A stretch of DNA of 44,116 bases from Frankia nepalensis. GTDB taxonomy: Bacteria; Actinomycetota; Actinomycetes; Frankiales; Frankiaceae. The position numbers and the translations under genes are program-made. Below the pieces are notes generated by a model, which searched no databases, was not told the DNA's origin, and saw only the letters and a program-made list of their open reading frames with translations. Below are positions 20,530 through 36,408 of the stretch, one piece after another. Each line of letters starts with the position of its first letter. Position 1 is the stretch's first letter. The stretch spans positions 1 to 44,116 of the forward strand of contig NZ_JADWYU010000148.1 in the NCBI RefSeq assembly GCF_016786325.1, given 5' to 3'.

Positions 20530-20982
20530 CCGCCCTAGATGCCCGTCGGACGCGGCGGCCCGCTTCTCCAACGACCCGTGCCGCCTGTCTCATCCATCTG
20601 TCTCATCTCGCTCCGCTACCTGGGTCGCGGGCCCTGTCCCGACTCGGTCGTGGATTCGTGCTGGTCACGGGGCGGTCGGCGTGATCACGCCGGAGGTGCG
20701 CGCCAACCGAAGTTTCGCCAGTCTCGTTCCAGAGGTGTCGGGGTGGGCCGGTGACCTGGCCGGTCACGAGAGACGCGGAGAAGCTGGCCAGCGTTGACCA
20801 GCACGGCGCGGACGAGCGCGCGACGACGGGATGCGTCCGGCCCTCCCACTCGACCGAAGACGCGGAGTGTGCGGGCTGACCGCCCTCGCGGGTCCGCGGG
20901 CGCGAAGGACGCCAGCCCGATCAGGCCAGCAGGCAGCCGGGGCCACTTGCCCGGCGAGGCTATGCCCCCGGCGGGCGACCCC

Positions 20983-27260: not shown

Positions 27261-28859
27261 TCAGCCGACCTGGCGGGCCGCGCCGGTCCAGTAGCGGGCC
27301 CGCAGGGCCTTCTTGTCTGGCTTGCCCACGGCGGTGAGCGGGAGGGCGTCGACGAACTCGACGCTCTTGGGAGCGTGGTGGGGGCCCTTGCGCTCCTTGA
27401 CCAGCGCCGTCAGTTCCGCCGCCAGCTGTTCGGGGGACGCGGGCGTGCCGGCGCGGAGCACGACGACGGCCTTGACGGCCTCCCCCCACTTCTCGTCGGG
27501 CACGCCGACGGCCGCGGCCGCGGCGACCGCGGGGTGGGCGGAGAGCGCGTCCTCGATCTCGCGGGGGAAGACGTTGAAGCCACCGCTGACGATCATGTCC
27601 TTCTTGCGGTCGACGATCGTGTAGAAGCCGTGCTCGTCCTGGCGGGCGATGTCGCCGGTGTGCAGCCAGCCGCCGGCCAGCGCCTCGGCGGTCTGCTCGG
27701 GTTTGTTCCAGTAGCCCTTCATGACCAGCGGGCCGCGCACGCAGATCTCCCCGGGCTCGCCGGGTGGTACCTGGCGTCCCTGGTCGTCGAGCAGCGCGAC
27801 CTTCAGCCACGGCACCGGCCGTCCGCAGGAGGCCAGCCGGGCGGGGTCGTCCGGGTCGTGTTCCTCCTTGCGCAGCACGAGCACCGTCTGCGGGGCCTCG
27901 GTCTGCCCGTAGAACTGGAAGAAGACCGGCCCGATCCGCCGGATGGCGTCGCGCAGCCGGGTGGGCGACATCGCGGAGGCCCCGTAGAAGACCGTCTCGA
28001 GGCTGGACAGGTCGGTCTGGTCGAACCGGGGATGGTCGAGGATCGCGTAGATCATCGCGGGGACCAGGAAGATCGAGGTGATCCGGTGGCGTTCGATCGC
28101 GTCGAGGACCTGGCCGGCGTCGAACTTGGGGAGCACGACCACGGATCCGCCCTGGAGCAGGACCGGGACGATGAAGGGCGCGCCCGCGTGGCTCAGGGGT
28201 GTGCAGACGAGGTGGCGCAGGTCGGTCGGCCACTGCCATTCGGTGAGCAGGATCTGGGTCATCGTGGCGCTGCCGCGGTAGGTGGCCATGACGCCCTTGG
28301 GCTGACCGGTGGTCCCGCCGGTGTAGGCGACCGCGGCGATCCCCTCCGCGTCGAGCCGGGGGGCGACCAGCGGCCGCGGCTCGTAGCCCTCGGCGAGCGC
28401 GGCCAGATCCTCGCCGACCTCGCAGGGCCCGAACGACAGCAGCCGCTTGAGAGTGGGCACCCGCTCGGCGAGCTGGGCGGCGCGCTCGGCGAAGGACGGG
28501 TCGAACACGAGCGTCTCGATCTCGGCGTCGGCGAGGACGTAGGCGTGGTCGTCGAGCGAGCCCAGCGGGTGCAGCGAGGTGTTGCGGGCGCCGGCGACCA
28601 TGTAGGCGCCCATCGCGTACAGCACCTCGGGGCGGTTCGTGGAGAGCATGGCCACGCCGCTGCCCGGCCGGACGCCGCTGGCGGTGTAGACCTGCGCGTA
28701 CCTGCTGATCCGCGCGGACAGCTGGGCGCCGGTCAGCGTCCCGCCGTCGAGGTGGATCGCGGGCCGGTCGGGGTGCCGGCGTAGCGCCGCGATCAGCAGG
28801 TCGGGAAGGAACGCGCCGCGGTACAGGTCCGCCGCCTCGTCGGGCGATACGCCGCTCAT
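27261..28859 (-). CDS. Acyl-CoA ligase (FadD-like AMP-binding enzyme)
   Basis: I place the start at ATG 28859, with GGAGG nine bases upstream; the frame is open to 29138. The 532-residue enzyme has all the ANL-family signatures. The P-loop is YTGGTTGQPKGV (179-190), then FYGQTEAPQTV (A5 motif), GWLHTGDIARQDEHGFYTIV with DRKKDMIVSGGFNVFPREIE (A7-A8), and the C-terminal catalytic lysine in LPLTAVGKPDKKALR. It converts a carboxylic acid, ATP and CoA to the acyl-CoA through an acyl-adenylate. It is the third gene of a leftward operon after an NTF2-like protein and an SDR. The neighbourhood suggests activation of a fatty, steroid-side-chain or terpenoid acid. The chain length cannot be read from sequence. 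Confidence 0.93.
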   Translation of the reverse strand: MSGVSPDEAADLYRGAFLPDLLIAALRRHPDRPAIHLDGGTLTGAQLSARISRYAQVYTASGVRPGSGVAMLSTNRPEVLYAMGAYMVAGARNTSLHPLGSLDDHAYVLADAEIETLVFDPSFAERAAQLAERVPTLKRLLSFGPCEVGEDLAALAEGYEPRPLVAPRLDAEGIAAVAYTGGTTGQPKGVMATYRGSATMTQILLTEWQWPTDLRHLVCTPLSHAGAPFIVPVLLQGGSVVVLPKFDAGQVLDAIERHRITSIFLVPAMIYAILDHPRFDQTDLSSLETVFYGASAMSPTRLRDAIRRIGPVFFQFYGQTEAPQTVLVLRKEEHDPDDPARLASCGRPVPWLKVALLDDQGRQVPPGEPGEICVRGPLVMKGYWNKPEQTAEALAGGWLHTGDIARQDEHGFYTIVDRKKDMIVSGGFNVFPREIEDALSAHPAVAAAAAVGVPDEKWGEAVKAVVVLRAGTPASPEQLAAELTALVKERKGPHHAPKSVEFVDALPLTAVGKPDKKALRARYWTGAARQVG

Positions 28860-28927
28860 GGTGCTGTGCCTCCGGTCTCCGGGCGGGTCACATGGCCTAC
28901 TTGGCGGCGACCGCCGCCTGGTTGGCG

Positions 28928-29698
28928 TTACTTGGCGGGGAACCGCTGCGCGGCGTCGAGCCGGATGTTCTCGCCGTTGAGATAGGGATTGCGGATGATC
29001 GCCTCGACCAGGAGGGCGAATTCCGCGGGGCGCCCCATGCGGTGCGGGAAGACGATGGTGGCGACCAGCTTGTCCTTGAGTTGCTGGGAGGCACTGAGCA
29101 TGAGGTCGGTGCCGATGGTGCCCGGCGCGATGCCGCACACCCGGATGCCCAACGGTGCCAGGTCGCGGGCGAGGGGCAGCGTCATGCCCAGGATGGCCGC
29201 CTTCGCCGCCGCATAGGCGACCTGGCCGGCCTGTCCCTCCAACCCGGCCAGCGACCCGGTGTTGACGACGACGCCGCGCTGACCGTCCTCATCCGGCGTG
29301 TTCGCGGCCATCGCGGCGGCCGCCAGCCGGGTCACGTTGAAGGTCCCGACCGTGTTCTTGGCCAGCGTGCCGACGAACGTCGCCAGGTCGTGCGGCGCGC
29401 CATCCCGGCCGACCGTGCGGGCCGGCCGGGTGCCGCCGCCGGCCACGTTGGCCACGATCGACAGGGTGCCGAGCTCCCGGGCGGCGTCGATCGCGGACGC
29501 GACGTCGGCGTCGACGGTGACATCGCCGGAGACCGCCGTGGTCGTGGGCCCGAGCTCGGCGGCGAGGCTCTTCGCGCGCTCGCCGTCCAGGTCGAATATC
29601 ACCACGCCGACGCCGAGCCCGACGAGATGCCGGACGGTGGCCGCGCCGAGCCCGCCGGCGCCGCCCGTCACGATCGCCGACGCGGCCGTGAGGTTCAT
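28928..29698 (-). CDS. SDR-family oxidoreductase (3-hydroxyacyl-CoA dehydrogenase type 2-like)
   Basis: The 256-residue protein starts at ATG 29698, which overlaps the stop of the preceding gene by ATGA; the ribosome site AAAGGTGA lies inside that gene. It is a classical short-chain dehydrogenase. The cofactor loop is TGGAGGLGAAT (11-21) with Asp-Leu-Asp at the end of the second strand, predicting NAD preference. It also has NVAGG, a serine near VVNTGSLAG, and the catalytic YAAAK (Tyr162, Lys166). The blocks GVVVNTGSLAGLEGQ and RDLAPLGIRVCGIAPG resemble human HSD10-type 3-hydroxyacyl-CoA dehydrogenases. In the operon with an acyl-CoA ligase, a role in oxidising a hydroxyacyl-CoA or hydroxysteroid is plausible but inferred. 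Confidence 0.93.
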   Translation of the reverse strand: MNLTAASAIVTGGAGGLGAATVRHLVGLGVGVVIFDLDGERAKSLAAELGPTTTAVSGDVTVDADVASAIDAARELGTLSIVANVAGGGTRPARTVGRDGAPHDLATFVGTLAKNTVGTFNVTRLAAAAMAANTPDEDGQRGVVVNTGSLAGLEGQAGQVAYAAAKAAILGMTLPLARDLAPLGIRVCGIAPGTIGTDLMLSASQQLKDKLVATIVFPHRMGRPAEFALLVEAIIRNPYLNGENIRLDAAQRFPAK

Positions 29699-30456
29699 GA
29701 GTCACCTTTCGTGGCGCGGCCCGCCGCCGGACCCGCGGCCGGGCTGGCGGTGTCGCGATCGGTGTCGCCATCGGTGTCGCGATCGGTGTCGCCGTCGATG
29801 AGTCGGAGGCAGCGGTGCGGGTCGGGCCCGGAACCGTTGCGCAGGACCGTCCGCTTGCTCGCGGCGGCGTCCAGGTAGAGGACTTCGGACACCATGAGGC
29901 CGCCGGCGAACCGCAGGAAGAACGCGATCGGGATGGTGGTGAGGCACCGGTCCGCCGGTTCGACGTCCCGCCATCCCTGCCGCGCGGCGAGCGGGGCGGC
30001 CAGCAGCGTGCGCAGTACGCCCTGCCCGGCGATGACATCCCGGTCAACGACCAGATCCGCGAGGCGCAGCCAGGTCATCGCCGCGCCCTTCGCCTGGCCC
30101 TGGCGGCGGACGGTCTCGACGAGGGCGGCCCGGCCGGTCGTCGTGCTGGTTCCGCCCGCGTGCGTCACGAGGGTGAACGCCGGGTCCAGCGTCCTGCCCA
30201 GGCGGTCGGCGTCACCGATCAGCTCGCTGGCGAGCCGGTCGCGCAGCAGCCGCGGCGTGCCAAGCGCGGGCGCCTCGGCGAGTCGCCGGTCGATGAGACG
30301 GAATGCCCGCAGGACGTCGCCGTCGCCCAGGAGATCGGTGTCGTTCAGGACGCCGTCGTCCCCCAGGACGCCGTCGTCCCCCAGGACGCCGTTGCCGTCC
30401 AGGTGGTCGCCATCGTCCGGGTCATCGGTGTCGTCCGGTCCGGTGTTGGTCGTCAC
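29695..30456 (-). CDS. NTF2/SnoaL-like protein with repeat-built acidic tails
   Basis: The 253-residue protein starts at GTG 30456 and is the first gene of the leftward operon. Residues 1-45 are an acidic leader with GVLGDD repeats, encoded by 18-bp units around 30349-30400. Residues 48-210 look like an NTF2-like alpha+beta fold of the SnoaL kind: DRLGRTLDPAFTLVTHAGG, TGRAALVETVRRQ and FAGGLMVSEVLYLD. Such proteins are small enzymes or binding proteins, often hydratases or isomerases of steroid-like molecules, but no catalytic residues can be assigned here. The C-terminus has DGDTDRDT repeats from a 12-bp minisatellite (29750-29797). The stop overlaps the SDR start. Confidence 0.7.
   Translation of the reverse strand: MTTNTGPDDTDDPDDGDHLDGNGVLGDDGVLGDDGVLNDTDLLGDGDVLRAFRLIDRRLAEAPALGTPRLLRDRLASELIGDADRLGRTLDPAFTLVTHAGGTSTTTGRAALVETVRRQGQAKGAAMTWLRLADLVVDRDVIAGQGVLRTLLAAPLAARQGWRDVEPADRCLTTIPIAFFLRFAGGLMVSEVLYLDAAASKRTVLRNGSGPDPHRCLRLIDGDTDRDTDGDTDRDTASPAAGPAAGRATKGDS
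29750..29797 (-). repeat. In-frame 12-bp minisatellite, four copies
   Basis: GTGTCGCSATCG-type units occur at 29750, 29762, 29774 and 29786. They code for the DTDG/DTDR tail of the NTF2-like protein. Confidence 0.85.
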
Positions 30457-30659
30457 GCGTGCTCTCCAGCCACTCGGCCGCGGGACCTCGTCGCGGCGCT
30501 CCCGCCGCGACAGAACTTACTAACTGTCTCGTCCTGGGTCGATTGGTTGGTACTGTCTCATCGCGTGGTCGCCGTGGGCTGACACCCGCGGCCGCCCGCA
30601 CCGTGGTCGGTGACCGGCGGACCCCGTCCGCCCTGCCACGCCGAGAGGTGACGAGACAG
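30457..30659. promoter_or_regulatory. Divergent promoter region with repeated CTGTCTCRTC motifs
   Basis: This 203-base interval separates two operons transcribed in opposite directions. CTGTCTCGTC occurs at 30524-30533 and its exact reverse complement, GACGAGACAG, at 30650-30659, touching the ATG at 30660. A third related copy, CTGTCTCATC, lies at 30553-30562. The first copy is also half of the imperfect palindrome GACAG-N10-CTGTC (30509-30528). The stretch 30510-30565 is AT-richer than its flanks, as expected for promoters. These are candidate operators for a regulator, perhaps the TetR protein encoded at 35356-36072. Confidence 0.6.
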
Positions 30660-31826
30660 ATGGCACCCAACGACATCGGCGCGTTACGAGGCGCTGACGA
30701 GACCCTCAACCATCAGCTGGTGGACACGTTCGCCACCGTGGCCGAGTCCGACCTGGCCTGGACCGAGAAGATCTGGGGTTCGCTGGCCAGCACCGACGGC
30801 TCCCTGCAGGTCGACTTCGGGCTGGGGAAGTACCACAACCGGGGCGTCATGGACGGCTTCGCCGGTGTCTCCCGCGGACGTGAGCAGTGGACGGTCCGGG
30901 GCAGCCGGGAGCTGCGTACCAGCCCGGAGGAGACGGCCGTCGGCCCGATCCACTACGAGGTCGTCGAGGCGCTGAACCAGGTCCGGTTCCGGCTGGAGCA
31001 GAACGACGTGCAGCCGATCTCGTTCGATCTCGTCCTGTCCGGGGTGACTCCGCCCTTCTTCGAGGACCGCAATCTCGTCCGGAACCGCCGCACGGGCCGG
31101 GTGGACGTCAACGTCATTCGTTACCACCAGGGCGGCTGGGTGTCGGGCACCGTCACGGTCGGCGGCGAGACACACGACGTCCGCCCCGAGGCGTGGTTCG
31201 GGTTCCGCGACCATTCCTGGGGCGTGCGGCAGGCCGTCGGAACACCGCCCACCGACCTGATCCGGGGCAAGGTCCCAGGGCTGGCCGGGCAGGGTAAGGG
31301 CGGCATGAAGTGGACGCCGGCCTTCCTGCGCCGCCCCGACGGCTCGTACTACGAGACCGCGATCTTCATCGCCGAAGGCGCCTGGGGGTACACGTCGGCG
31401 TACCTGAACGAGGCCGACGGCAGGCAGTCGAAGATCCGCGCGGCCGAGCCGCGGATCAGCTACGACACCCGCACTCGGTTCGTGAAGGGCGGGGAGCTGC
31501 ACCTGACCATGGAGTCGGGCGAACAGCGGGTCATCGAGGTGGAGGCGCTCGGCGAGGCCGGCTTCTTCCTGAAAACCGGAGGATACGGCTCCTGGAACGG
31601 GCACATCCATGGCTCGTGGCTGGGGAAGCTGCACCTGGATGGCGAGTACCTCAAGGACTGCTGGAGCGACGAGAACCTGCGCGTCCTCGGCCAGCTGCGT
31701 GACACGCCTGTCCGGGTCCGGGAGGGCGACGCGGTCGGGTACGGAATCATGGAGAGCCTCATCCACGGCGAGTGGCCGGAACTCGGCCTGACCGCCGATT
31801 CCGACTTCCTGGTGTCGTTCGCGTGA
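30660..31826 (+). CDS. DUF7064/CrtC-AttH-like beta-barrel protein
   Basis: The 388-residue protein starts at ATG 30660; GAGAGGTGA lies upstream, and the frame is open back to 30303. It is rich in beta strands and carries FGFRDHSWGVRQ (about residues 180-191), a motif I associate with the DUF7064/DUF7065 group related to CrtC/AttH lipocalin-like hydratases and carotenoid 1,2-hydratase. It also has PISFDLVLSGVTPPFFEDRN and a Gly/Trp/His-rich segment, YGSWNGHIHGSWLG, in the second half. No signal peptide is seen. It is the first gene of the rightward operon, and its stop overlaps the P450 start by GTGA. A role in binding or modifying a large hydrophobic ligand is inferred, not shown. Confidence 0.72.
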   Translation: MAPNDIGALRGADETLNHQLVDTFATVAESDLAWTEKIWGSLASTDGSLQVDFGLGKYHNRGVMDGFAGVSRGREQWTVRGSRELRTSPEETAVGPIHYEVVEALNQVRFRLEQNDVQPISFDLVLSGVTPPFFEDRNLVRNRRTGRVDVNVIRYHQGGWVSGTVTVGGETHDVRPEAWFGFRDHSWGVRQAVGTPPTDLIRGKVPGLAGQGKGGMKWTPAFLRRPDGSYYETAIFIAEGAWGYTSAYLNEADGRQSKIRAAEPRISYDTRTRFVKGGELHLTMESGEQRVIEVEALGEAGFFLKTGGYGSWNGHIHGSWLGKLHLDGEYLKDCWSDENLRVLGQLRDTPVRVREGDAVGYGIMESLIHGEWPELGLTADSDFLVSFA

Positions 31827-33064: not shown

Positions 33065-34165
33065 ATGAGTAACGACGACGCTCTCGAACGGCTGACCTCC
33101 TGGTTCCAGGAGCGGCTTCCGTCCGCGACCGACCTGCGGGTCGAGAACTCCAGCCGCGTCGCGTTCGGCCACTCGGCCGAGATGACGACGCTGACGCTCG
33201 CCTGGCGCGACGGCACCGAGGAACGCCGCGAGGATCTCGTGCTGCGGCTTCGCCCGCCCTTTCCCGGCCTGCTGGAGCCCTATGACATGGCCCGGCAGTT
33301 CACGATCCTGCGGGCGCTGGAACGGACCGGAGTCCGCGGCCCGGCCGTGCTGTGGCTCGACGCGACGGGCGAGGCGCTGGGACGGCCGTTCTACGTGATG
33401 GCGCGGGTGGACGGGGACGTCTACGAGACCGAGATACCCGCGGAGCTCGACGCGCGCCCCGCGACGATCCGCCGGATGACGCGGGCGCTCGTCGAACAGC
33501 TCGCCGCGATCCACCTCGTGGACCTGCCCGCCACCGGCCTCGCGGCCCTCGGCGACGGCCGGTCGTATCTCGACGACCAGCTCGACCACTGGACCGCCGA
33601 GATGCGCCGCGTCCAGCGGGGCGAGCTGCCGGCGCTGGAGCGGCTGCTCGGCGAGCTGCGGGAACGCCAGCCCGCGCCGTCCGAGCGGGTCACCCTGGTC
33701 CATGGCGACCCCAAGCCCGGCAACTTCGCCTTCGTCGACGGCGAGGTGACCGGAGTCTTCGACTGGGAGATGGCCGGGATCGGCGACCCCCTCGCCGACG
33801 TCGGCTACCTCGACCTTCTCTGGAAGACGCCCGGCTTCTTCACGAGCCGCCCGGCGGCGCTGACCGCCGACGAGGCGTTCGCGTACTACGAGGAGCTGAC
33901 CGGCATACCGGTTCGGCACCGGGAGTGGTACCGGGCTTTCCAGTCGTTCAAGACCTGCGTGATCCTCCTCGTCGGCGCCGCCCTGTTCGAGGCCGGGCAC
34001 TCGGACGACCCGAGGTTCGGCTTCATGGCGCTGGGCATTCGCCCCTATGCCCGGCGCGCCCTGCGTGCCCTCGGCGTCGACGAGGACCTGCCCACCGGGC
34101 CCGTCGAGCCGCGGCCCGAGCGTTTCGACGAGGCACGCGCCAGGTCCGCTGACCTGGCGCGCTGA
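33065..34165 (+). CDS. Phosphotransferase family protein (APH / ACAD10-kinase-like)
   Basis: The 366-residue protein starts at ATG 33065, 42 bases after the P450 gene, with GGAGCAGGCA upstream. It has the aminoglycoside-phosphotransferase kinase fold. VLRLRPP contains the ATP-contacting beta-strand residue near 60. The catalytic loop is HGDPKPGNF (His213, Asp215, Asn220), and the metal site is DWEMAGIGDP (Asp233). In catabolic operons this subfamily usually acts on acyl-CoA metabolism rather than antibiotics; relatives in ACAD10/11 and LvaA phosphorylate 4-hydroxyacyl-CoAs. That role would fit the P450, SDR and ligase genes around it but is inferred. The 3' end lies inside a short direct repeat that continues past the stop codon. 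Confidence 0.92.
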   Translation: MSNDDALERLTSWFQERLPSATDLRVENSSRVAFGHSAEMTTLTLAWRDGTEERREDLVLRLRPPFPGLLEPYDMARQFTILRALERTGVRGPAVLWLDATGEALGRPFYVMARVDGDVYETEIPAELDARPATIRRMTRALVEQLAAIHLVDLPATGLAALGDGRSYLDDQLDHWTAEMRRVQRGELPALERLLGELRERQPAPSERVTLVHGDPKPGNFAFVDGEVTGVFDWEMAGIGDPLADVGYLDLLWKTPGFFTSRPAALTADEAFAYYEELTGIPVRHREWYRAFQSFKTCVILLVGAALFEAGHSDDPRFGFMALGIRPYARRALRALGVDEDLPTGPVEPRPERFDEARARSADLAR

Positions 34166-34210: not shown

Positions 34211-34259
34211 GCGTTCCGCCCGCCGGGCGGGCGCGCCCGTGACCAAAGAGGGACAGAAC

Positions 34260-35114
34260 ATGACGAACGAGGTTGACGGGCTGTCGGTGCTGGTCTCCGG
34301 CGGCGGTACCGGCATCGGCGCGGGTATCGCGCGACGGCTGGCGAGCGACGGCGCCTGGGTGACGATCTTCGGCCGCACGGCGGCCACCCTCCAGACCACG
34401 GCGGAGTCGATCAATGCCGAGCTCGGCCGCGAGGCGGTCCGGTACCACGTCGCTGATGTCACCAGCGAGCCGGACGTCGCGCGGGTCGTCGAGCTCGCGG
34501 CGCAGTGGCGCGACGGCCTCGACGGCGTGGTCGCGAACGCGGGCGGCGGCGGCGCCCTGGCTCCGCTGCACGCCCAGAAACTCGAGGAGTTCACCCGCGT
34601 CCTCACGCTGAACGTCGTCGGCACGCTGCTGCTGGTCAAGCACTCGGTCCCGCTGTTCGCCCGCGCGGGCACGGGCTCGGTCGTCGCCATCTCGTCCATC
34701 GCCGGGCATGTGACGCATCCCTACTTCGGGGCCTACCCGGTGGCGAAGGCGGCCGTGGAGGAGCTCATCCGCAACGCCGCCGACGAGTACGGGGCGGCGG
34801 GCATCCGGTTCAACGCCGTCCGCCCGGGGCTCACGTCGACGGAGATCATGAGCTGGGCGGCGCCGGGCACGCCGGTCTACGAGAGCTACGACGAGAACAC
34901 GCCACTCGGGGGCGCCTCCGACGTCGACGACGTCGCGCAGCTCGTCAGCTTCCTGTTGTCGCCGAGAGCCAGCCGGGTGACCGGGCAGGTGATGAACGTG
35001 GACGGCGGGCTCTGCCTGCGCCGTGGCCCGGACTACTCGGCGCTGGTCGCGCCCCGGTTCGGGGGAACGGACGCCCTGCTGGGAAGGGCGGAGCCGGCGC
35101 GCACCACGTCATGA
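34260..35114 (+). CDS. SDR-family oxidoreductase
   Basis: I start at ATG 34260 because GAGGGA lies a few bases upstream; an in-frame start at 34239 exists. The 284-residue enzyme is a classical short-chain dehydrogenase. It has the cofactor motif SGGGTGIGAGIA (about 14-25), NAGGGG, ISSIAGH containing the catalytic serine, and YPVAK (Tyr159, Lys163). FGRT after strand two has Arg rather than Asp, which points to NADP preference, in contrast to the NAD-type SDR of the leftward operon. It is the last gene of the rightward operon. A matching oxidation or reduction of the P450 product is a reasonable guess. About 25 extra residues at the C-terminus are not typical of the family. Confidence 0.94.
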   Translation: MTNEVDGLSVLVSGGGTGIGAGIARRLASDGAWVTIFGRTAATLQTTAESINAELGREAVRYHVADVTSEPDVARVVELAAQWRDGLDGVVANAGGGGALAPLHAQKLEEFTRVLTLNVVGTLLLVKHSVPLFARAGTGSVVAISSIAGHVTHPYFGAYPVAKAAVEELIRNAADEYGAAGIRFNAVRPGLTSTEIMSWAAPGTPVYESYDENTPLGGASDVDDVAQLVSFLLSPRASRVTGQVMNVDGGLCLRRGPDYSALVAPRFGGTDALLGRAEPARTTS

Positions 35115-35355: not shown

Positions 35356-36072
35356 ATGACGGTGGTCGCCGGCCAGGACGGCGCGGGGCAGCGCACACCG
35401 GGATGGTGGGGCAACGACAGCGCGCTCCTCGACGACGAGGAGGCGCGCCGCCGCCTCGTCGCGGCGACGGGCCGTTGCCTCGCGCGGCGGGGGACCAGCC
35501 GGATCCGTATCGAGGAGGTGGCCGTCGAGGCCGGCGTCTCCCGTTCCACGGTCTACCGGTATTTCAAGAACCGCAACGAACTCATCCTCGCCGTGCTGCT
35601 GAGCAGGGTCGATGTCGCCATGACGGGCGTCATCAGTTCCCTTCCGCGGCCCGAGGACGCGGCGGCCTCGATCTGCGACGTGTTCCTGAAGTGCACGGAC
35701 CTGATCAACGGTGACGCCGTCAACGAGGCGCTCTTCACCGCCGGCAGCCGATCCCTCGCGGAGACGCTGGAACTGACCGCGGAACCCATCGTGGACGCCG
35801 TGTACCGCCATCTCGGGCCGCTTCTGCGGCGGTGGCGGGATGGCGGACAACTCGCCGCCGACCTGGATCTCCGGGAAACCGTCCGGTGGATGATGGCCGC
35901 GGGCGTCATCATCATGAGCCCGCCCTGGTCCGGCTGGTCGCCGGCCCGGAAGCGGGCGTTCGTGGACAGATACATCACGCGAGCCCTTGTCGGCCCGGCC
36001 TTGAGCCCCCCGGGCAACGCGGGTCCGACCGGGCCGCTTTCGGTTCCAGATAACCGGGCTGAGCAGAAATAG
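35356..36072 (+). CDS. TetR-family transcriptional regulator
   Basis: I place the start at ATG 35356, giving 238 residues; the frame is open back to 35023 but that stretch overlaps the SDR gene end and lacks protein character. No clear ribosome site is seen, so a leaderless start is possible. The N-terminal DNA-binding domain (about 30-80) is typical: LVAATGRCLARRGTSRIRIE, EVAVEAGVSRSTVYRYFKNRNEL (quoted in part). The C-terminal part should form the ligand and dimer domain and carries no recognisable ligand signature. Its position just after the P450/SDR operon suggests that it controls this cluster. The motifs in the divergent region (30509-30659) are candidate sites; I did not find the same motif directly before this gene. 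The 241-base gap before it holds no other gene. Confidence 0.93.
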   Translation: MTVVAGQDGAGQRTPGWWGNDSALLDDEEARRRLVAATGRCLARRGTSRIRIEEVAVEAGVSRSTVYRYFKNRNELILAVLLSRVDVAMTGVISSLPRPEDAAASICDVFLKCTDLINGDAVNEALFTAGSRSLAETLELTAEPIVDAVYRHLGPLLRRWRDGGQLAADLDLRETVRWMMAAGVIIMSPPWSGWSPARKRAFVDRYITRALVGPALSPPGNAGPTGPLSVPDNRAEQK

Positions 36073-36114: not shown

Positions 36115-36334
36115 GTCAGGGCGCCGGGGCGCCGGTCGCCCGCCCGCATGAGTCGGCGGATCTGCCGCCCCATTGGTCCGAACAGCCTCGAACACGAACA
36201 CGGGCCACATCGGGACCCGCGTTTGGCGCCGTCGCGCTCGGGTAGCTCGGACTGCGCGGGCTGTCCGCGCCCGTGACCCGACGGCGCGCCGACGGCCGCC
36301 GTCGCCGACGGGCTGTGGCCGCGTGGCCGGGCGC

Positions 36335-36408
36335 GGCATTTCGGACGGACATCTAGCCACGGCATCTCGGACGGAACGGTATCTCGGACAGCACGGCATT
36401 TCGGACAG
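36335..36408 (+). repeat. Iteron-like direct repeats upstream of the catalase gene
   Basis: GGYATYTCGGACRG occurs four times, at 36335, 36361, 36378 and 36395. The last three are spaced exactly 17 bp apart, and the first is 26 bp before the second. The array ends 27 bases before the catalase start. Even spacing suggests regulator binding or a recently expanded repeat. No known catalase regulator box (CatR, FurA) is obvious. Confidence 0.85.

Follow-up and report, generated by a model that had tools for sequence, protein, structure and literature searches.

Rv3167c of M. tuberculosis recognises a palindrome in the intergenic region, autoregulates and represses Rv3168-Rv3169, as established by gel shift and ITC in the sections of the report drawn on here (PMC5340868). 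ACAD10 and ACAD11, according to the excerpt of PMC11342911 used here, phosphorylate 4-hydroxyacyl-CoAs via their kinase domain. The locus analysed in this work lies in a 44,116-nucleotide stretch of Frankia nepalensis DNA (the window) and, when likened by gene content and not by operator letters, appears to have its nearest studied parallel in Rv3167c-Rv3168-Rv3169. In both cases a TetR-type regulator gene stands beside APH-type and Rv3169-family genes (PMC5340868, same sections). The Frankia locus differs in carrying an extra P450, SDRs and a divergent ligase operon, and in the position of tetR, which is the last gene of the operon here, whereas it is divergent in the Rv3167c system.

The intergenic region at 30457–30659 separates a minus arm (NTF2-like, SDR, acyl-CoA ligase) from a plus arm (Rv3169-family, P450, APH-fold kinase, SDR, TetR). 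The first gene of the minus arm (29695–30456, minus strand) has a GTG start and homologues in relatives; its product was judged NTF2-like by eye, and a Pfam/NCBIfam search with it returned no match. It is followed on the same strand by an SDR gene (28928–29698; PF00106) and by an acyl-CoA ligase gene (27261–28865, start approximate), the best NCBIfam match of which, FadD8, falls below the model cut-off. The plus arm, all on the plus strand, opens with the Rv3169-family gene (30660–31826; NF053593, above cut-off), followed by genes for a cytochrome P450 (31772–33022; PF00067), an APH-fold kinase (33065–34165; PF01636) that is related in sequence to ACAD11 chains and to PDB 3ats, which we take to be Rv3168, and an SDR (34239–35114; PF13561). 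Last comes the gene for the TetR-family regulator (35356–36072), which has an N-terminal helix-turn-helix (PF00440, E 1.4e-11), whose orthologues elsewhere carry the candidate operator upstream, and which we propose as its reader. Further along the window, at 36331–36406, four copies of a 16-nt repeat like GCGCGGCATTTCGGAC, spaced by 26, 17 and 17, lie just upstream of a catalase gene (36436) and are perhaps candidate sites of another regulator.

The repeated 10-mer and the proposed operator unit

Within this intergenic region, the first-pass annotation had picked out three copies of a 10-mer, namely CTGTCTCGTC at 30524–30533 (plus strand), CTGTCTCATC at 30553–30562 (plus strand) and CTGTCTCGTC at 30650–30659 (minus strand), abutting the ATG at 30660; all three were confirmed in letters and coordinates, and the GACAG-N10-CTGTC palindrome that it had described at 30509–30528 is indeed present. 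The 10-mer itself is not a specific mark, because the 10,728,764 bases of the genome hold 31 exact copies (compared with 9 for a reversed control pattern) and because the window count with one change allowed does not stand clearly above shuffled sequence: it is 11, against an average of 6.82 in the shuffles, 12 of 100 of which reach 11. The bare 10-mer was dropped as a regulon marker on account of its genome copies, the flanks of 30 of which were inspected. Exact copies in the window number five, two of them (20585–20594 and 20598–20607) beyond those reported earlier.

Aligned with related promoters, the region suggests a larger arrangement, and the predicted working unit is a 24-bp dyad, GNGACA-N12-TGTNNC, with a third half-site, rather than the 10-mer. 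In the window, the dyad that we regard as the core operator, O1, is GCGACAGAACTTACTAACTGTCTC (GNGACA-N12-TGTCNC; 30507–30530), conserved in seven other promoters of the type called M below and recovered by the R1 profile. The third half-site, GAGACA on the minus strand (30554–30559), stands at 29 bp from that of O1, and the arm that would pair with it is degenerate here (CGACCC). A proposed −10 hexamer of the minus-strand promoter (TAAGTT, 30514–30519, minus strand) falls inside O1, with a proposed −35 hexamer (TCGACC, 30537–30542, minus strand) at 17 bp from it. Both hexamers are inferred from patterns drawn up by eye after the sites were known, of which the −10 pattern was located in eight of eight M modules; a scan of 30430–30680 for consensus promoters and terminators found none.

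Taken as a composite, GNGACA-N12-TGTCNC plus a third half-site 29 bp away is found at one place in the window and in none of 300 first-order Markov windows, a count that is weak taken alone, the pattern having been fixed after the site was seen; a profile that leaves this genome out, described below, is the stronger test. The looser dyad GNGACA-N12-TGTCNCG proved useless by itself as a genome marker, with 5 matches in the window's own genome against 10 for the reversed control. Elsewhere in the window, at 20585–20607, two exact copies of CTGTCTCATC stand in tandem, 13 bp apart, between two minus-strand genes. This pair was considered as a second operator and rejected, having no N12 partner, no 29-bp neighbour and no R1 profile match.

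Distribution of the unit among relatives

A protein search with the Rv3169-family product matched 25 of 58 genomes at E ≤ 0.001, and the 17 best-scoring loci of the match list were used for promoter comparison; these were the window's own and 16 others, two of which are poor relatives (44 and 52% identical) and one a paralogue in the same genome (L058). Named genomes, scanned separately, yielded eight loci, those of Pseudofrankia sp. BMG5.36, Pseudofrankia asymbiotica, Frankia sp. AgB1.9, AgB32 and R82, Parafrankia sp. EUN1f, an Acidimicrobiales MAG and a Novosphingobium MAG.

The unit occurs in two promoter types in the relatives, designated here by genome numbers. The M type is found at the window's minus promoter, in the equivalent place in G004, G005 and G006, and upstream of tetR in G001, G003, G008 and G023; in G003 and G008, the two tested by Pfam, an aldehyde dehydrogenase gene lies across the operator from tetR. 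Its third half-site, GAGACA (GAGACG in G001 and G003), is 29 bp upstream of the left arm when read in the direction of the minus-arm or dehydrogenase gene, a spacing kept in all eight M modules, window included. The P type stands before the Rv3169-family gene in G004, G005, G006, G031 and G032 and before the second copies of G001 and G003, and also upstream of tetR in G031 and G032; here the third half-site is 29 bp downstream of the left arm. The variants GAGACA and GCGACA swap sides between genomes, as expected of a dyad. The dyad overlaps the proposed promoter in both types, lying over the proposed −10 with its centre 2 bp away in eight of eight M modules (window included) and 4 bp away in seven of nine P modules, the hexamer pattern having no match in the other two (G001, G003). 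In G031, the remnant of a broken P450 C-terminus lies between operator and tetR (L149:584–720).

Among the 16 other Rv3169-family loci, the P unit was found in strict form in seven and in a weak form in two (G008, G023). The remaining seven, searched over 14.7–20 kb each, lack a strict P-type operator; they include the main copies of G001 and G003, which are 84–86% identical. These main copies have instead a different palindrome, GATCGGAC...GTCCGATC, upstream of the Rv3169-family gene (L064 and L065, near 9407 and 9437), possibly the operator of a related TetR.

Sequence-only profiles were then built without the window's genome, R1 from seven M modules and R2 from nine P modules; the weaker Rv3169-family promoters of G008 and G023, in which the third half-site departs from the pattern, were left out of R2. 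Over the 58 genomes, R1 returned 20 rows at E ≤ 1, nine of them at E ≤ 1e-3, made up of the seven training sites, the window site and one on contig C143 of G033; the other 11 had E values of 0.036–0.92. The window site (30507–30530 region) scored E 6e-12, with the next match in its own 10.7-Mb genome at 0.92. These searches score part of the first-look candidates, and when the own-genome search was repeated with more of them scored (150 of 431), R1 again gave the window site and one row at 0.92. That the motif is common in the genome, named in the first-pass annotation as a refuting result, thus holds for the bare 10-mer and does not hold for the full operator, which has one strong match.

In the case of R2, 28 rows were obtained at E ≤ 1 over the 58 genomes, twelve of them at E ≤ 1e-3: the nine training sites and sites on G033 C147, G032 C277 and G033 C330. 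The 16 weaker rows (E 0.013–0.78) have G008 C8 as the lowest (0.013) and include one before the G023 Rv3169-family gene (0.04). All five non-training matches of the two profiles at E ≤ 1e-3 (R1 two, R2 three) precede genes of the set: the window's minus arm, an aldehyde dehydrogenase gene (PF00171, G033), a tetR gene (about 60% identical, G033) and, twice, an NTF2-like/SDR operon (G032, G033), in which the ligase gene is present in G032 and the contig ends after the SDR gene in G033. In these last two genomes (L147 and L146, respectively), the minus-arm operon is divergent, across the operator, from a gene like those of acyl-CoA thioesterases, the thioesterase domain having been tested in G032. 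Among 393 genomes drawn from the class, the eight with an R2 match at E ≤ 1e-3 all belong to the family of the window. A longer P-type pattern, allowed up to two changes in 12 genomes, gave eight matches in seven genomes and none in the window's own. Taken together, these comparisons lend good support to a regulatory site of an ordinary kind, with a conserved 29-bp layout.

The TetR protein as likely reader

The Rv3169-side P pattern also matched contig C321 of G032, and that genome's closest TetR gene was then found about 240 bp downstream; since the match preceded knowledge of a tetR gene there, it was counted for the TetR protein as reader. When the strict dyad was looked for in up to 600 bp before each of 22 tetR genes, it was present in seven cases, as would be required for autoregulation: those of G001 and G003 (69% TetR in both), G008, G023, G031, G032 and G033 (C147). 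The 15 upstream regions without it belong to G000 (the window's genome), G004, G005 and G006 and to eleven distant copies (48–58% identical). In the window and in G004, G005 and G006, tetR is the last gene after the SDR gene, inside the plus arm in the window, and is not directly preceded by an operator. With one change allowed, a looser scan of 500 bp before 19 of these tetR genes contributed nothing beyond chance-like rows upstream of the G037 gene; in that genome, of the same class, a 48% identical TetR gene is divergent from the Rv3169 gene, and the 20-kb locus holds neither P nor M unit.

The TetR tree divides with a support of 0.996, all seven operator-bearing members being on one side and ten members, none with an operator, on the other. 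The recognition region GVSRSTVY is identical in 11 of 11 close orthologues, that of the window among them. None of the ten members on the other side has it: nine read AVVRSTVY, AVARSTVY or GVVRSTVY and the tenth GVSRMTLY. The last of the eleven distant copies, a second TetR of G033 (C59, 58% identical), is an exception: it has the GVSRSTVY recognition region, yet no operator was found for it. In G008, G023, G031 and G032, the operator-bearing tetR and the Rv3169-family operon are on separate contigs, and the Rv3169-family search found no close relative in G033; all five are draft assemblies, in which contig separation does not give true distances. The operator is tied to the TetR protein because these five genomes carry tetR and operator apart from, or without, a found Rv3169 operon.

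It appears likely, with a probability that we put at roughly 0.8, that the TetR repressor encoded in the cluster itself (35356–36072) has this unit as its operator. Weighing against it are the tetR genes with no operator directly before them in the window, G004, G005 and G006, the G033 C59 copy, and the seven Rv3169-family loci that lack a strict P unit. A TetR dimer on O1 would cover the proposed −10 and exclude RNA polymerase from the minus promoter (NTF2-like, SDR, acyl-CoA ligase), perhaps with a second dimer at the 29-bp half-site beside the proposed −35, and a pathway intermediate would release TetR from the operator. In relatives, copies of the operator could let one repressor hold the Rv3169-P450-kinase-SDR operon, the aldehyde dehydrogenase gene and tetR.

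A different regulator travelling with the same genes might read what would still be a real operator. The assignment to TetR comes from sequence and takes in part of the regulators near the sites. Against a different reader, the operator stands before a tetR orthologue in seven loci, in five cases at a place separate from the Rv3169 operon, and the scan found none before any of the ten more distantly related TetR genes; we consider such a reader improbable. That GAYGAGACA is no operator at all and instead a promoter element of an alternative sigma factor would fit its place in both promoter types, where it is flanked by hexamers resembling a −35 and a −10. However, the O1 centre stands at −2 bp from the proposed −10 in one type and −4 bp in the other, whereas the N12 inverted arm and the 29-bp half-site stay fixed in both, which makes the sigma-factor interpretation highly unlikely.

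The start-codon repeat, the plus arm and known systems

The first-pass annotation had proposed that one repressor uses three sites, one of which blocks the translation start of the plus gene, and so directly controls both arms. In its favour, the start-codon copy is the exact reverse complement of the copy beside O1, relatives keep a purine-rich ...GACAG-ATG leader (a match to GAYGAGACAG within one change directly before the start in 3 of the 16 other loci, L032, L037 and L039, with a further near-match 4 bp further up in L034), and M modules have a gene close beyond the third half-site, as if they may act both ways. However, GAYGAGACAG is exact at that place in none of the 16 other loci, and the start-codon copy, GACGAGACAG (30650–30659, plus strand), has no inverted partner at N12 and no half-site at 29 bp. 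In the aligned leaders it forms the spacer between the Shine-Dalgarno sequence (about 30645–30651) and the ATG, GTCGTGAGGGGACGGGACAG-ATG in G006 corresponding to GCCGAGAGGTGACGAGACAG-ATG in the window, and is probably part of the ribosome-binding leader. On this alignment and the missing partner arms, a start-codon operator was rejected, and we hold the three-site arrangement to be unlikely. What stands of the repressor proposed for the divergent promoter is a candidate operator on the palindrome noticed earlier, to which the two upstream copies also pointed, with TetR as its likely reader; the translation-blocking site falls away. A short repeat at a start codon can thus mimic an operator while being a ribosome-binding leader.

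With regard to the plus arm, a P-type operator-promoter precedes the plus gene by about 90 bp in G004, G005 and G006; aligned with the first two of these, the window shows a gap at that place. This operator-promoter was not found in the window's own genome by R2, which gave no match at E ≤ 5 with 150 of 713 candidates scored. The G006 region also has an alcohol dehydrogenase gene, situated between its M module and its P promoter. No plus-arm promoter was identified in the shared region, and control of both arms is unproven because the promoter that the operator overlaps is that of the minus strand, and an operator-promoter of the plus arm's own is missing here. Nevertheless, since genes start close beyond the M module in relatives (57 bp past the third half-site in G001 and G003, 47 bp in G008 and G023, 63 bp in G006, against 100 bp in the window), the shared region may drive the plus arm too in this genome.

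Gene content allows a guess at a pathway for a hydroxylated acid. In a wider and tentative reading, which we regard as possible though doubtful, a single TetR would govern a scattered regulon for hydroxylated-acid catabolism by way of half-sites with a 29-bp phase, which lie on one side of O1 in the M type and on the other in the P type, the plus-arm operator having been lost here and the plus arm left on the shared operator. The catabolic steps would fall to the P450, the CoA ligase, the APH-fold kinase phosphorylating a hydroxyacyl-CoA, the SDRs and the aldehyde dehydrogenase, which connects the Rv3169 family with an acyl-CoA pathway that includes a P450 and an APH-fold kinase. For a so far uncharacterised Frankiaceae TetR, this provides a testable candidate operator and a target list, and the proposed code, GNGACA-N12-TGTNNC with a 29-bp half-site, can be tested on short DNA. 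The operator is named in no paper title among the matches listed, which does not establish its absence from print.

The consensus operators of KstR and KstR2 are not known to resemble GNGACA-N12-TGTNNC. The likeness to these systems lies in the spread of TetR operators over several catabolic operons, as set out in the parts of the KstR and KstR2 reports considered here (PMC3068626, PMC1995591), although the regulon is small in the present case. Mce3R, in the sections of PMC11667970 cited here, is likewise a TetR-type repressor with two sites of about 25 bp in one upstream region, found via orthologous intergenic regions; unlike that double TetR protein, whose sites are non-palindromic and 53 bp apart, the proposed Frankia system would pair a TetR of ordinary length with a dyad and a 29-bp step.
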